Below are positions 43,016-48,637 of a stretch of 64,000 bases of DNA, one piece after another; within the stretch, counting starts at the first letter, position 1; each line of letters starts with the position of its first letter. The DNA is from Streptococcus oralis. GTDB lineage: Bacteria > Bacillota > Bacilli > Lactobacillales > Streptococcaceae. The position numbers and the translations under genes are program-made. The stretch is from contig NZ_CP019562.1 of NCBI RefSeq assembly GCF_001983955.1, positions 186,001 through 250,000 of the forward strand, given 5' to 3'. Below the pieces are notes generated by a model. That model was not told the origin of the DNA and searched no databases. It was given only the letters and a program-made list of their open reading frames with translations.

Positions 43016-43084
43016 AAAAATTCAATCGGCTTGATAGAAAATCTATATCAACACTTTTTTGAAAAATAGATGAAAATAAAGTGA

Positions 43085-43129
43085 ATCTTTGAAAGGCTAG
43101 TAAAATCAAGCTTTTCAGGGATTTTTTTC
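43085..43129 (+). terminator. Terminator after the monooxygenase-family gene
   Basis: ATCTTTGAAAGGCT (43085-43098) pairs with AGCTTTTCAGGGAT (43109-43122), three wobble pairs, then a T tract. Confidence 0.65.
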
Positions 43130-43145
43130 TTTATCGATATAAAAA

Positions 43146-43183
43146 TTTCCAATCGAGTTAATAGTCAATATATATTGGGAAAA
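43146..43183. promoter_or_regulatory. Possible operator before the UroD-like operon
   Basis: CAATATATATTG (43166-43177) is a perfect 12-bp palindrome, flanked by an imperfect larger dyad TTTCCAAT ... ATTGGGAAA. It lies 57 bp before ATG 43234. No confident -35/-10 pair was found, so operator and promoter are inference. Confidence 0.35.
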
Positions 43184-43233
43184 GGGGAAAAGGAGTGGTA
43201 AGATGGTTTCAATCCAAATGGAAGGAGAAAGGT

Positions 43234-44238
43234 ATGGCAAGTAAAAGAGATTTAGTCTTTAGAGCGATTCGAGGCGATGAAGTGGAAAGAGTTCCTGTGG
43301 GATTTTGGTTTCATTTTGTAACACTCGAAGAAAAGGGGCAGGGATTAAACAATCCACGTATCTTTCAAAAAAGTGTTGACGGACATCGTAGTTATGTGGA
43401 AAGGATTCGCCCTGATTTTGTCAAAATTATGAGCGACGGTTTTTTCCTTTATCCAAGTAATGTCTATAGTCCTAAGATCGCAAGCATTCAGGAGCTGACT
43501 TTTATTGAGTCGATTGGTGAGGAACACCCATGGATTCAGCAACAGGTGCAAGTGGTACAAGCGATTCGAGAGACCTTTACCGAAGAGATTGCTTCTTTCT
43601 ACAATATCTTTTCACCAATCTCCTACCTCAAGCGCTGGTTCCGTACAGAAACTTCTCGAGGAGATAGGGAAGTGGCTGACCTATTGCTTGAAAATCCTGA
43701 GCAATTCAAAGCTATTCTAGATGTGATTGCAGGAGATATTGCTATCCTAACTCAGAAAATCATCCAGCAAGGAGGTGTTGACGGGATTTACCTCAGCACT
43801 CAGGAAATTCAAGATGAGCGCATCACACCAGCACTCTACCAAACCTATATCGAACCGAGCAATATAGCGATCTTGGAAGCAGCCAATCAGGTTGATGGGA
43901 TCAATATCCTCCATATCTGTGGTTTTGAAGGTGCGAGCAATGATGTGACGATATTTAAGGACTATCCAGCTCAAGTGGTCAACTGGGCGACTCATCATGA
44001 GGATGTTAGTTTGACACAGGGTCAAGAGTTATTCCGAGATAAGGCCGTTTTAGGTGGATTCGAAAATGGCAAGAAAAGCTTGCTTTATCAAGGTTCCAAA
44101 GCGGAATTGCAAAATGAAACAAGACGGTTGCTGGCTGAAGCGGGTAGTAAAGGCGTTCTTCTGGGAGCTGACTGTACTGTTCCAGATGACTTTGACTTAG
44201 AGAGGTTGGACTGGATTCGACAGGCTGCTGTTCTCTAA
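43234..44238 (+). CDS. UroD-superfamily protein 1, putative zinc methyl/thiol transferase
   Basis: A 334-residue member of the uroporphyrinogen decarboxylase/MtaA-like superfamily (RGDEVERVPVGFWFHF, RPDFVKIMSDGF). It has H227-x-C229 (ILHICGFEG) and C314 (LGADCTVP), the His-x-Cys...Cys zinc-ligand pattern of methylcobalamin:thiol methyltransferases, not seen in heme-pathway UroD. I chose ATG 43234 (AAGGAG, 6-nt spacing) over GTG 43195 because the paralogue downstream has the same length. First gene of an operon ending in an amino acid ABC transporter. A thiol alkyltransferase is inferred; the substrate is unknown. Confidence 0.85.
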   Translation: MASKRDLVFRAIRGDEVERVPVGFWFHFVTLEEKGQGLNNPRIFQKSVDGHRSYVERIRPDFVKIMSDGFFLYPSNVYSPKIASIQELTFIESIGEEHPWIQQQVQVVQAIRETFTEEIASFYNIFSPISYLKRWFRTETSRGDREVADLLLENPEQFKAILDVIAGDIAILTQKIIQQGGVDGIYLSTQEIQDERITPALYQTYIEPSNIAILEAANQVDGINILHICGFEGASNDVTIFKDYPAQVVNWATHHEDVSLTQGQELFRDKAVLGGFENGKKSLLYQGSKAELQNETRRLLAEAGSKGVLLGADCTVPDDFDLERLDWIRQAAVL

Positions 44239-44249
44239 AAGGAGGAGCT

Positions 44250-44453
44250 ATGAAAAGTAAAAGATGGGGTATCTTCATTGCAGTTATCGGTTTGCTGGCT
44301 TTGGTTGCCATAAGCGTCGTAAAAAATCAGCACTGCAAAAATGGAGAGAGATGTCATGGAGTTCAGGATTTTTCTAAGTCCAGTCTCCCCTTTCTACGCT
44401 CGAATGATATCGCAAGCAGTTTATTAGTTGAAAAAGTAAGAAATGGAGAATAA
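44250..44453 (+). CDS. Small membrane-anchored peptide, 67 aa
   Basis: ATG 44250 with a strong RBS (AAAGGAGGAGCT). It encodes an N-terminal membrane helix (about residues 7-24) and a short polar tail with two cysteines (C29, C35; QHCKNGERCHG). The N terminus resembles that of the substrate-binding protein downstream, so it might be the remnant of a duplicated binding-protein gene; a second short frame (44355-44426) overlaps. It lies between the two UroD-like genes with tight spacing. I do not recognise a family. Confidence 0.5.
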   Translation: MKSKRWGIFIAVIGLLALVAISVVKNQHCKNGERCHGVQDFSKSSLPFLRSNDIASSLLVEKVRNGE

Positions 44454-44455
44454 GA

Positions 44456-45454
44456 ATGTCAGAAAAAAAAGAATGGGTTTTAAAAGTATTTAGAGGTGAA
44501 AAGGTTGATCGTGTGCCAGTTGGTTTTTGGCACCATTTCACATCCGAAGACGAATGGCTGCACGGTTTCTCAAATCCAGTCATTATCGAGAAGAATATTG
44601 AGGGACATAAGCGCTTTATCCGAGAAGTTCAGCCAGACTTTATCAAACTCATGAGTGATGGCTACTTTGCTTATCCAAATCCAGCGATTGCCAAAGGCAA
44701 ATCACTTCAAGAATTGGCAACCATTCAACCACTCGGACCAGAGCACGCTTGGATAAAAGAGCAGGTGGACTTGGTTAAGAAAATCAAGCAAGAATTTACA
44801 GAAGATATCGTTGCGATTTACAATATTTTTGCTCCTGTGACCTATCTCAAGTGGCTACTGGGGGAAGTGTCTGGTGGCGATGACCTCATTGCGGACTTTC
44901 TGGTGGAAGATCCTGAAGCCCTTAAAAAGGTGTTGGATGTGATTGCAGAAGATATTGCGAGTCTCAGTCGAGCTGTCATCGAAGAGGCCGGTGCAGATGG
45001 AATCTACCTCAGCGTGCAGAGTATCCAAGATCAACGAGTGTCGGCAGCAGGTTATCAAGCCGTCATTGCCCCTAGCGAAATAACGGTTCTGGAAGCAGCT
45101 AGTGCTGTTGGTGGCGTCACAGTTCTTCATATCTGTGGATACGAGGGAGCGCGAAATGATATTCACCTTTTTGCAGACTATCCAGCCCAAGTCTTTAACT
45201 GGGCTGTAGGACCAGAGGGAGTCACTCTCAAGGAAGGTCGTGAGATTTTCAAGGGACGTACGGTTCTTGGAGGATTTGAAAATGGCAAAACAGGCTTGCT
45301 GTATACTGGTAGCAAGGACGCCATTCAGGCTGAGGCAAAGAAACTAGTTGCAGAAGCTGGGGAACAGGGCTTGGTACTTGGGGCAGATTGTACCATTCCA
45401 AGTGATATCGCAGTTGAACGTATCCAGTGGGTGAGAGAAGCGCTTGAAAACTAA
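44456..45454 (+). CDS. UroD-superfamily protein 2, putative zinc methyl/thiol transferase
   Basis: A 332-residue paralogue of UroD-like protein 1, colinear along the whole length (KVDRVPVGFWHHF, QPDFIKLMSDGYFAYP). It keeps the same metal signature: H225-x-C227 (VLHICGYEG) and C312 (LGADCTIP). Having two paralogues side by side suggests either a heterodimer or two related substrates. Start ATG 44456 is two bases after the small-peptide stop (RBS ATGGAG). It is followed 11 bp later by the binding-protein gene. Streptococci have no heme pathway, so true UroD activity is very unlikely. Confidence 0.85.
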   Translation: MSEKKEWVLKVFRGEKVDRVPVGFWHHFTSEDEWLHGFSNPVIIEKNIEGHKRFIREVQPDFIKLMSDGYFAYPNPAIAKGKSLQELATIQPLGPEHAWIKEQVDLVKKIKQEFTEDIVAIYNIFAPVTYLKWLLGEVSGGDDLIADFLVEDPEALKKVLDVIAEDIASLSRAVIEEAGADGIYLSVQSIQDQRVSAAGYQAVIAPSEITVLEAASAVGGVTVLHICGYEGARNDIHLFADYPAQVFNWAVGPEGVTLKEGREIFKGRTVLGGFENGKTGLLYTGSKDAIQAEAKKLVAEAGEQGLVLGADCTIPSDIAVERIQWVREALEN

Positions 45455-45465
45455 AGGAGAAAAAG

Positions 45466-46344
45466 ATGAGTAAAAAAGCATGGATTATCGGTGGTGTAGC
45501 AGTTGTTGCGGTAATTGGGGCAACAATTATCGGAAGAAGTTTAGCTGGTGCTCCAGCCAAGGATGGAGAAACGGCTTCTTCTGCTGAAGTTATAACCTTG
45601 AAGGTTGCCCATACACAAAACTATGTACCTTATGACTTTGTCAATGAAAAAGGGGAATCAGATGGTTATGAGGTAGCTGTTTTGAAGGCTGTTGATGAGA
45701 AGTTGGCAAACTATAAATTTGAATATACGGGCACCAGTGATGACGACCTCTTGATTGGTCTGGAATCAGGCAAGTATGACATCGGAACCAAGGGAGCTTG
45801 GTACACAGATGAACGAGCTAAAAAGTTTGTCATTCCATCTGAACCAGTCGGAGCGAGCATCATCGGATTTACTGTCAGAAAAGAAGATGAACAGAAATAC
45901 AAAACCATTGATGACTTTGCTAAGAATAAAGGGAAATTGGTTCCCATCTCTCCACAGAATGCTCAATGGAATGTCATCACCAGCTACAATGAAAAACATC
46001 AGGATGCACCGATTGAGCTAACAGCAGCTGAATCCTTTAAAGTGGCAGATGCCTATGCCTGGGTCTTAGAAGGACGTTATGACGCCTTCTTTGATATCAA
46101 ACTGTCCTTTGAAAAAGCAGTTACTGCAGAAGATGGACCTTACCACCAATATGCGGATAAACTCAGCTGGTTCCCATACAAGGGCATTCCAACTTATCCC
46201 TTGATTCACCGTGATGAAAAGGGTGAGAAATTCGCTAAAGAATACGAAAAAACAATCAAAGAGTTGAAAGAAGATGGCACGCTTGCTAAGCTATCTCAGC
46301 AATACTTCAAAGAAGATGTCTTTAGTTACGTAGACAAAGACTAG
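45466..46344 (+). CDS. Amino acid ABC transporter substrate-binding protein
   Basis: A 292-residue SBP_bac_3 family protein. Residues about 5-23 form a hydrophobic N-terminal anchor or signal peptide, then a linker and two lobes (LKVAHTQNYVPYDFVNEKGE, SGKYDIGTKGAWYTDERAKKF). The protein contains no cysteine at all, so it cannot be a lipoprotein, unlike most Gram-positive binding proteins; it is probably held by the uncleaved N-terminal helix. The family binds polar amino acids, but the ligand here is unknown. AAGGAG is the RBS. Confidence 0.9.
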   Translation: MSKKAWIIGGVAVVAVIGATIIGRSLAGAPAKDGETASSAEVITLKVAHTQNYVPYDFVNEKGESDGYEVAVLKAVDEKLANYKFEYTGTSDDDLLIGLESGKYDIGTKGAWYTDERAKKFVIPSEPVGASIIGFTVRKEDEQKYKTIDDFAKNKGKLVPISPQNAQWNVITSYNEKHQDAPIELTAAESFKVADAYAWVLEGRYDAFFDIKLSFEKAVTAEDGPYHQYADKLSWFPYKGIPTYPLIHRDEKGEKFAKEYEKTIKELKEDGTLAKLSQQYFKEDVFSYVDKD

Positions 46345-46376
46345 ACCAGAAATTCCAAGACTAGAAAGGGTTTTGC

Positions 46377-47069
46377 ATGGTTTCTTATGATTTTTCCAAG
46401 GTCTTTCAGTTTTTACCGACCTTATGGCAGGCACTTCCTATGACCTTGTCCATTCTCTTTTTTACCACTCTTCTTGGTTCCCTTTTTGGAGGTCTCTTGG
46501 CCTGGGCGCAAGTAGGAGAAGACAAGAGTTTTGCAGCGATTTCCAAAGGCTATATCTTTACCCTTCGTTGTACACCGCCGATTGTCTTACTTTTTCTAGT
46601 CTTTTATGGCTTGCCAGAATTTCTGAAATGGTGGCTTGGTTTAGATATCAACAACTGGTCTAAAACTATTTTTGTTCTCCTGACGATGATTCTCTTGTTT
46701 GCCGCTATTGTTGCCGAGGTTTTCAAGGCGGCCTATCAAGCTATTCCAAAGGGGCAGACAGAGGCCGGACTTAGTATTGGTTTGACTCCAAGTCAGACTT
46801 TTTGGAGAATCATTTTTCCCCAAGCTTTTCAAGTTGCTCTTCCCAATATAACAACCGCTATTCTCAATCTCATGCGAGATGCTGCCTTGGCTTATACGAT
46901 TGGTTTCGTTGATGTTATGGGAGCGGGGAATCTCTTGATCAGTCGCAATTTAGGGAACTACTCTCTGGAAACCTATACGGCAGTCGCACTTCTTTACTGG
47001 GGGATTGCCCTGGTTATTTCTGGCTTGAGTCGTTTGCTTGAGAAGTCTTTGGAAACAAAAGGGAGGTAA
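46377..47069 (+). CDS. Amino acid ABC transporter permease 1
   Basis: A 230-residue permease of the His/Glu/Gln/Cys type with about five transmembrane helices. The EAA loop that contacts the ATPase is clear (QAIPKGQTEAGLSIGLTPSQTFWRIIFPQAFQVALP). ATG 46377 has GAAAGGG upstream. The second permease follows after 3 bp, so the pair probably forms a heterodimer. Confidence 0.93.
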   Translation: MVSYDFSKVFQFLPTLWQALPMTLSILFFTTLLGSLFGGLLAWAQVGEDKSFAAISKGYIFTLRCTPPIVLLFLVFYGLPEFLKWWLGLDINNWSKTIFVLLTMILLFAAIVAEVFKAAYQAIPKGQTEAGLSIGLTPSQTFWRIIFPQAFQVALPNITTAILNLMRDAALAYTIGFVDVMGAGNLLISRNLGNYSLETYTAVALLYWGIALVISGLSRLLEKSLETKGR

Positions 47070-47072
47070 GAA

Positions 47073-47795
47073 ATGGATATAGACTATATTGTAAAGACCT
47101 TTCTGGAGACCTTGAAGGGTGTGCCAATCACCTTGATTATCATGATTGTGGCTATGGTCTTAAGTTTTTTACCGGCTCTATTTTTAGCCTTGGGGCAGAT
47201 TTACAAGGTTCGAGGGGTTAGGAGTTTTTCCTTGGTCTATCTGGCGTTTATCCGAGCGACTCCTCCGATTTTATTGATTCTCTTCTTTTATAGTTTGTTT
47301 CCAAGCCTGCTGAATCAATTTCTCAAAAGCATAGGAAGTGACTTTGATATTTTCAAACTTGATCCTCTCTATTATGCCTTTATCATTTATAGTTTGATGA
47401 CAGTCGGGAGTTTGTCGGAGATTTTGCGTTCAGCTATCTTGACGGTGGACAAGGGACAACTAGAGGCAGCGCATGCGATTGGCTTGACTACGCCCCAGGC
47501 CTATCTAAGGATTGTTTTTCCTCAAGCCTTGCGCTCAGCCTTGCCTAACTTAGCCAATCTGGTGATCAATATCGTCAAAGGGACCTCCCTGGTCTTTGTC
47601 ATGACCATCAAGGACATCACCGCTATTGCTCGTGTAGAAGCGTCCTACGGTTACCAGTATTTTGAGTCTTATTTTGTGATCTTTTTGCAGTATATTTTGA
47701 TCTGTGGTTTGATTCAGTGGGGCTTCTCCCTATTGGAAAAAGGCTATGTGAAAAAAGAAAAAAGTGCAAAAGCATCTAGCGCGCGTTTTGTATAG
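47073..47795 (+). CDS. Amino acid ABC transporter permease 2
   Basis: A 240-residue second permease, about five helices, with its own EAA loop (KGQLEAAHAIGLTTPQAYLRIVFPQALRSALPNL). It begins MDIDYIVKTFLETLKGVPITL. GGGAGG in the end of permease 1 serves as RBS. The C-terminal tail is basic and cytoplasmic (KKEKSAKASSARFV). Confidence 0.93.
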   Translation: MDIDYIVKTFLETLKGVPITLIIMIVAMVLSFLPALFLALGQIYKVRGVRSFSLVYLAFIRATPPILLILFFYSLFPSLLNQFLKSIGSDFDIFKLDPLYYAFIIYSLMTVGSLSEILRSAILTVDKGQLEAAHAIGLTTPQAYLRIVFPQALRSALPNLANLVINIVKGTSLVFVMTIKDITAIARVEASYGYQYFESYFVIFLQYILICGLIQWGFSLLEKGYVKKEKSAKASSARFV

Positions 47796-47804
47796 GAGGA
47801 CAGG

Positions 47805-48569
47805 ATGTTACAAGTAGAACATATCGCAAAAACATTTGGAGAGAGGCAGGTGCTGGAGGATGTCAATCTTCAGGTTAACCAAGGGGATGTCGTCGTTATC
47901 TTAGGACCATCAGGTTCGGGGAAAACGACCTTTCTCCGTTGTCTCAACCACTTAGAAAAAGCTGACAGTGGCCGTTTGACCTTGGCTGGAAAAACTTATG
48001 ACTTGGCCAAATTAAGCAAGAAAGACATTCTAGAAATTCGCCAAAAAACAGCCTTTGTTTTCCAACACTACAATCTTTTTGCAAATAAAACTGCTCTGGA
48101 AAATATTCTAGAAGGTCTAATCGTCGCTCGTAAAGTTCCCAAGGAAGAAGCGCTCAAACGTGCAGAATCTGCCTTGGAAAAAGTTGGTTTACTAGCCTAC
48201 AAAGACTACTACCCTTCACAACTATCTGGAGGACAACAACAACGAATAGGAATTGCGCGTGCCATTGCCGTCAAGCCCGAGGTCATTTTGCTAGATGAAC
48301 CAACATCGGCACTAGACCCTGAGTTAGTTGGAGATGTTTTGGATGTTCTGAAACAGTTGGCGGGAGAAGGTGTGACCATGGTGGTCGTCACGCATGAAAT
48401 GGGATTTGCTAGGGATGTCGCTAACCACGTTGTTTTCATGGATGGAGGCCGTATCGTAGAGGAGAACAATCCCCACGATTTCTTTAGTCGTCCACAAGAA
48501 GAACGAACCAAGCAGTTCCTGGCTCGTATCTTATCAGATGCCACCTATAGTGTAGAATATATGATTTGA
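47805..48569 (+). CDS. Amino acid ABC transporter ATP-binding protein
   Basis: A 254-residue ATPase of the GlnQ/HisP type. Walker [10 protein letters not shown] is at about 34-42, the signature LSGGQQQR at about 139-146, Walker [13 protein letters not shown] at about 160-171 and the switch His in VVVTHEMGF. It completes the importer (binding protein, two permeases, ATPase). A terminator follows. Confidence 0.95.
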
Positions 48570-48587: not shown

Positions 48588-48637
48588 AAACAACACCCCA
48601 TGACTAGAAGATTCTTCTGACCATGGGGTGTTTTCTC
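48588..48637. terminator. Bidirectional terminator between the ABC operon and pulA
   Basis: AACACCCCATG (48592-48602) / CATGGGGTGTT (48622-48632), enclosing a nested AGAAG-ATT-CTTCT; T-rich on both strands, so it can serve the ABC operon and minus-strand pulA. Confidence 0.85.

Follow-up and report, generated by a model that had tools for sequence, protein, structure and literature searches.

A Streptococcus oralis operon of UroD-fold proteins and a polar amino acid importer is a candidate sulfur amino acid salvage system

Streptococci lack heme synthesis, which raises the question of what two proteins of the uroporphyrinogen decarboxylase (UroD) superfamily do in an operon of Streptococcus oralis (assembly GCF_001983955.1, contig NZ_CP019562.1), where they are encoded together with an amino acid importer. 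The operon lies at positions 43234-48569 of a 64000-nucleotide stretch (positions 186001 to 250000 of the contig), which we call the window and to which all coordinates refer. T-box leaders, CmbR-like sites and neighbouring genes of related loci make a predicted role in cysteine or methionine supply well supported and, in our judgement, very probable. The more specific reading, that the operon is a sulfur amino acid salvage system which would import an S-substituted compound and move its substituent between sulfurs without vitamin B12, stands in our view at even chances.

The locus holds seven open reading frames (ORFs), all on the + strand, all open and separated by gaps of 2-32 bp, in a host genome of 1.97 Mb. 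Both the gene set and its tight spacing are as described in the original prediction, which was made from the letters of the window:

43234-44238, + strand: UroD-like 1 (U1), 334 amino acids (aa) from ATG, with an in-frame GTG alternative at 43195; Pfam URO-D; H-x-C...C motif
44250-44453, + strand: membrane peptide, 67 aa; no match in Pfam
44456-45454, + strand: UroD-like 2 (U2), 332 aa; Pfam URO-D
45466-46344, + strand: substrate-binding protein, family 3; SBP_bac_3; near YtmK, GshT and cystine receptors
46377-47069, + strand: ABC (ATP-binding cassette) permease 1, polar amino acid type; BPD_transp_1
47073-47795, + strand: ABC permease 2, polar amino acid type; BPD_transp_1
47805-48569, + strand: ABC ATPase; ABC_tran; best NCBIfam model L-cystine TcyN, under its cut-off

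Both UroD-like proteins carry the PF01208 domain (URO-D E-values of 8.6e-16 and 8e-22), the UroD fold is predicted for an orthologue, and these two are the only URO-D matches in the whole genome. The family-3 binding protein, two permeases and ATPase together make up a polar amino acid ABC importer. Its components fall below the equivalog cut-offs of the nearest cystine models, the binding protein reaching 61.3 of 312 bits against PRK11260 and the ATPase 313.5 of 406 bits against TcyN; among solved structures, YtmK ranks first as a relative of the binding protein.

The partnership of UroD gene and importer recurs widely. Matches to UroD-like 2 were found in 58 of the 147 Streptococcus genomes, at 1e-20 in 20 of the 246 from the order and at 1e-25 in 8 of the 398 from the phylum, the last two sets including Streptococcus. 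Of the other 57 Streptococcus genomes that matched, 48 were followed with longer stretches; at each of these 48 loci a close UroD relative has no fewer than three importer subunits beside it, the operon standing at the glmS site and at other chromosomal sites. Half of 12 further loci (6/12) likewise carry at least three subunits; 11 of these come from other genera and the twelfth, L123, is a distant UroD (25%) at a second place in Streptococcus genome G043 and is not among the 48. In a named collection, from which the best 80 of 444 UroD relatives were kept, an importer of at least three subunits is present in all 18 Streptococcus loci and in 32 of the 62 others, the latter including Lachnospiraceae, Phascolarctobacterium, a spirochaete and Trichococcus; 4 of the 62 have a partial importer, 17 have none and in 9 the UroD ORF was not called. 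Seven of those nine hold importer subunits, and the ORF caller also missed the UroD gene in L070 and L073. Since the locus sets overlap (L064/L137, L122/L188 and L091/L187), these counts are not additive. In a number of Lachnospiraceae the UroD gene lies between the binding protein and permease genes. That one gene set recurs in different genera goes far beyond what chance would give; with such steady co-occurrence the genes are not scattered in other genomes, the outcome that was to refute the original prediction.

Sequence elements upstream of the operon and its relatives support its predicted control by cysteine or methionine. Of 28 non-Streptococcus loci scanned with Rfam, 5 from three genera have a T-box leader immediately before the UroD gene, and the specifier codon in the Rfam model alignment is AUG in L064, L066 and L067 and UGC in L068 and L069. 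We examined such readings with a codon rule (codon, purine, four bases, GGAG), applied to 30 T-boxes out of the 46 matched in genomes G366 and G446. The rule was satisfied by a reading in 11 of the 30, two of them the operon's own, and agreed with the gene downstream for trpS, ileS (partial), valS and MetN (below its cut-off, and by one of two readings). A hisS T-box with an Asp codon is consistent on condition that a hisS-aspS operon starts there; the cysS control (L246) gave no valid reading by the rule, having TGC in the loop but then C, and L232 and L242 allowed no judgement. Because this control is mixed, the readings as methionine (L064, L066, L067) and cysteine (L068, L069) are likely rather than certain. 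Upstream of the Trichococcus-like loci L134-L142, a simple pattern also finds T-box-like motifs.

Within the streptococci, two elements precede the operon:

43031-43049, no strand assigned: TGATA-N9-TATCA dyad; close relatives with the identical sequence have 5 mismatches to the published CmbR operator, and the form found there in others has 3
43131-43178, + strand: promoter-proximal element (ATAAA..AATC..ATAG..AATATATT), of similar form across a 30-row alignment except L102

In some relatives the first half of the promoter-proximal element is a CmbR-like site with 2-3 mismatches. The exact dyad occurs at 10 places in the genome, against 2 for a reversed control, and on our reading the genes adjoining the other nine are not clearly sulfur genes; the published 21-mer was therefore used instead, with a control. 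This CmbR operator consensus of S. pneumoniae, given with promoter tests in excerpts of PMC5131005, was sought in the 250 bases upstream of the first UroD gene (the upstream stretch of L080 being short), and sites with at most 4 mismatches were found in 26 of 48 Streptococcus loci versus 19 of 287 control regions. MtaR-like sites (at most 3 mismatches) were found in 3 of 48 loci versus 7 of 287 control regions.

The genes around the UroD gene outside Streptococcus point in the same direction. We clustered the neighbours, within a few kb and on either strand, at 62 non-Streptococcus loci, a mixture of fetched and named loci that differs from the 62 of the importer count and leaves out loci whose UroD ORF was missed. 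PatB-type C-S lyases were found at 13 loci (a cluster member at L192, only 23% alike, was not counted), cystathionine lyase-like Cys/Met pyridoxal phosphate (PLP) enzymes at 12, CysK/CBS-like proteins at five and NifS at one. The representatives from L169 score over the NCBIfam cut-offs for PatB C-S lyase, CysK and NifS, and the Cys/Met PLP enzyme lies nearest the cystathionine gamma-lyase models, below cut-off.

As to the enzymes themselves, both UroD proteins of the window have the H-x-C...C motif, which we take to supply the metal ligands in the MtaA/CmuA family. In an alignment of 182 UroD relatives, which includes duplicate sequences from the overlapping locus sets, H227 and C314 are present in 182/182 and C229 in 169/182. 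Fold comparison of the orthologue related it to coenzyme M methyltransferases and also to MetE and core MetE, in lists where rows within 1 Z count as tied and from which a missing family is not excluded. Because of superfamily and motif, thiol alkyl or methyl transfer is, by analogy, the somewhat favoured reaction for these proteins. The metal, the reaction and the substrate are all inferred. The binding protein, permeases and ATPase would take up a carboxylate-bearing sulfur compound, for which cysteine or homocysteine with an S-substituent (a thioether or sulfonium) is the most likely candidate. Each UroD-fold enzyme would hold a metal, probably zinc, through H-x-C...C and would move the S-substituent, most likely methyl, between the imported compound and a thiol, with no corrinoid being used in streptococci. 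The sulfur would end as cysteine, homocysteine or methionine, at which point lyases and synthases would take over, and the operon would be on when cysteine or methionine is short.

In a tree of 75 sequences, UroD-like 1 makes up an exclusively streptococcal, well-supported clade; its neighbours, at an unresolved fork, are UroD-like 2 lineages of streptococci, a pattern which suggests rather than proves that the two arose by duplication within the genus. Many loci carry a single UroD gene, and in streptococci the single copy is by best match of the UroD-like 2 type. In G031 (L108) UroD-like 1 has an in-frame stop, and in G138 (L102) it is a fragment, UroD-like 2 being intact in both, as if UroD-like 1 were dispensable. 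The dedicated importer, the UroD-fold enzymes and, through control elements and neighbours, the link to sulfur amino acids hold from the earlier proposal, whereas a methylated import, its part as methyl donor and a need for both enzymes are conjecture, many loci having one enzyme only and the UroD-like 1 clade being confined to streptococci.

Several observations weigh against the salvage reading. The well-known methyl transferases of the UroD fold use a corrinoid, without which a thioether methyl that is not activated donates poorly, so that the substrate may need to be a sulfonium or the group something other than methyl; the substrate and activity of the operon proteins are themselves predictions. 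A weak B12-domain match, below cut-off, occurs in three streptococci. No such importer subunit lies near the gene in the 17 named loci noted above, and some loci carry another importer with DhaK/DhaL in place of the polar amino acid type. T-boxes were found in the five loci among the 28 scanned and none in the window; the UGC reading has an AUG alternative one base away, and the codon rule disagrees for two controls, L221 (ilvC) and L230 (thrS), as named by our reading. The upstream site of the window has the sequence of its nearest relatives with 5 CmbR mismatches, and the 48 scanned loci are related, not independent. Finally, fewer than half of the loci have PatB or cystathionine-lyase neighbours, and the streptococcal operons showed none.

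The relation of the fold to MetE and core MetE raises the alternative that the UroD proteins are B12-independent homocysteine methylases of the methionine synthase type, using methyltetrahydrofolate or another donor, with the importer bringing a sulfur precursor such as cystine, cystathionine or homocystine; we regard both the enzyme activity and this role of the importer as unlikely. The methionine T-boxes upstream of UroD would fit it, as would operons with a Cys/Met PLP enzyme and a PatB lyase, which could make homocysteine, and the PF01717 domain is absent in G446, G669 and G574 and weak in G130, G026 and G712. However, a strong PF01717 match (E <1e-100) is present in 34 of 40 UroD-carrying genomes tested, the S. 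oralis genome included, so most carriers would not need a second methionine synthase, and the tie between enzyme and importer and the cysteine T-boxes would be left unexplained. The window proteins match PF01208 only and not PF01717, and replacement of MetE was rejected on the strong match in the host genome and in the 34. A role as partner of MmuM was also rejected: its domain, PF02574, has no match in the S. oralis genome and is matched in 30 of the 40 carriers, so there is no clear anticorrelation.

It is also rather improbable, in our estimate, that the enzymes act by metal-assisted C-S cleavage, or by transfer of a group other than methyl, to free cysteine from an unusual adduct (one of the 2-aminothiazoline- or thiazolidine-4-carboxylate type, or one with a larger S-alkyl group). 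Genes of the 2-aminothiazoline-4-carboxylate (ATC) hydrolase family lie upstream of the adjacent UroD gene in Treponema L145 and flank the set on either side in L157, and SDH_alpha proteins, which we take to be cysteine desulfidase-like, are encoded near the UroD gene in L151 and L172. DhaK/DhaL-like kinase genes in four loci (L143, L148, L151 and L162), where another ABC importer, of branched-chain type by our reading, also lies nearby, suggest a C3 or sugar-like product there. The invariant Lys109 and Trp112 of the binding protein also count for this reading. Nevertheless, such neighbours are found in few loci, mostly without the polar amino acid importer, and none, ATC hydrolase family genes included, was seen in the streptococcal operons.

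That the importer is an ordinary cystine or glutathione system with which the UroD genes travel without a functional tie is very unlikely. The binding protein and ATPase are indeed near such systems, but the UroD gene sits inside the importer gene order in the Lachnospiraceae described above, and Lys109 and Trp112 are invariant in 16 aligned binding proteins, where the GshT alignment has Asn and Ser.

A corrinoid methyltransferase system with its corrinoid protein encoded elsewhere, like the type 1 mlp clusters, is disfavoured in streptococci and we give it almost no credence: the superfamily is the same, excerpts of PMC10418091 propose the mlp clusters for methyl-sulfur or methyl-selenium metabolism, and B12-binding domains are present in 6 of 8 non-Streptococcus genomes tested, yet none was found in the S. 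oralis genome, none over cut-off in 32 Streptococcus genomes tested and none in G231 and G340. On these streptococcal results a corrinoid system was rejected there. Uroporphyrinogen decarboxylase proper, a heme enzyme, was set aside on the general knowledge that streptococci make no heme and on both URO-D proteins of the genome lying in the operon.

To return to the salvage reading, its nearest known counterparts differ from the operon in instructive ways. MtaA/MtbA and CmuA (TIGR01463) share the UroD fold, the H-x-C...C motif and a likely metal-activated thiol chemistry, whereas the window proteins score 39.8 and 37.2 bits against a curated MtaA/CmuA cut-off of 235.4 and the streptococci tested lack a corrinoid partner domain over cut-off. 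MetE and core MetE are set apart by family, PF01717 rather than PF01208, and the genome holds a separate PF01717 protein. In Bacillus subtilis the ytm and yxe operons, which reportedly serve the use of S-substituted cysteines, resemble it in tying an importer of the same class, with YtmK as the top solved relative, to enzymes for unusual sulfur amino acids; those enzymes belong to families other than UroD, and we know of no UroD protein in either operon. The mmuMP system for S-methylmethionine utilization also combines uptake with methyl transfer and has the same regulators proposed, whereas its transporter and enzyme families differ from those of the operon and its enzyme domain is missing from the genome. 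For mmuMP, excerpts of PMC3616900 predict MtaR/CmbR regulation in Streptococcaceae. Type 1 mlp clusters (Kountz and Balskus), as excerpted from PMC10418091, hold several UroD-superfamily proteins each, are mostly from Firmicutes, occur in anaerobes and encode a corrinoid protein and an activase, whereas the present set lacks a corrinoid protein and a Ram/RACE activase and has the polar amino acid importer as its constant partner; the words ABC transporter are absent from the main text of that paper (version 4).

A literature search covering mostly titles and abstract openings returned no description of this gene set, the mlp clusters being nearest; the main text of Wels 2008 (PMC2494555) contains neither uroporphyrinogen nor UroD, and the sole such mention in PMC3766115 concerns B12 synthesis. 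An importer paired with an enzyme for an unusual sulfur amino acid is a known kind of system, and a UroD-fold branch in such a role is new to us. We propose tentatively that these proteins are UroD-fold metalloenzymes of a new branch that works without B12 and, coupled to its own importer, trans-alkylates or de-alkylates the S-substituted sulfur amino acids brought in, and, with similar reserve, that the route may be an undescribed one common to mouth streptococci, gut Lachnospiraceae, spirochaetes and other Bacillota. If so, a role could be given to an operon that many gut bacteria and oral streptococci carry, namely to obtain cysteine or methionine from a sulfur compound so far overlooked, and the superfamily, known for methyl transfer with corrinoids, would have a branch that needs no B12. 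Relatives are named in public records as uroporphyrinogen decarboxylase family protein or methylcobalamin:coenzyme M methyltransferase, names which fit neither a genome without B12-binding proteins nor the lack of heme synthesis.

The operon is bordered by a luciferase-like monooxygenase gene (SP_0267 family) on one side and pulA on the other, with a hairpin at each end:

43083-43124, + strand: hairpin before the operon, on the monooxygenase side, then a T run; RNA fold -18.5 kcal/mol, z -4.7; either a leader hairpin or a terminator for the gene upstream
48592-48632, no strand assigned: hairpin between the ATPase gene and convergent pulA; RNA fold -24.5 kcal/mol, z -5.2; likely a terminator

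The terminators expected on both sides are borne out in so far as these hairpins are strong, whereas a simple terminator scan called neither, listing 5 terminator-like sites versus 6.0 in shuffles. One case was checked for the suggestion that the operon is accessory and bears it out: Streptococcus G029 lacks a UroD match, and its glmS, monooxygenase gene and pulA adjoin without the operon.

Some variants of the set were also seen. At the second site in G043 the distant UroD of L123 adjoins another family-3 binding protein and two permeases. In the Trichococcus-like loci L064, L066, L134, L135 and L137-L142, a GFO/IDH-type dehydrogenase and a second, distant UroD (~25% identity, with H-x-H in place of H-x-C) are encoded between the UroD and importer genes, and in L064 and L066 these extra genes stand behind the T-box read as methionine. 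In the tree, one supported clade of 15 takes in the loci with the other importer, further loci and the Trichococcus sequences; Treponema L145 also has two amidohydrolases and M20/M28 peptidases. The membrane peptide is conserved: between U1 and U2 in 40 streptococcal pairs there are 33 distinct counterparts, whose N-terminus is hydrophobic and whose C-terminal motif resembles DLA.LL or DIA.LL, and some of them look like a signal peptide followed by ~35 residues.

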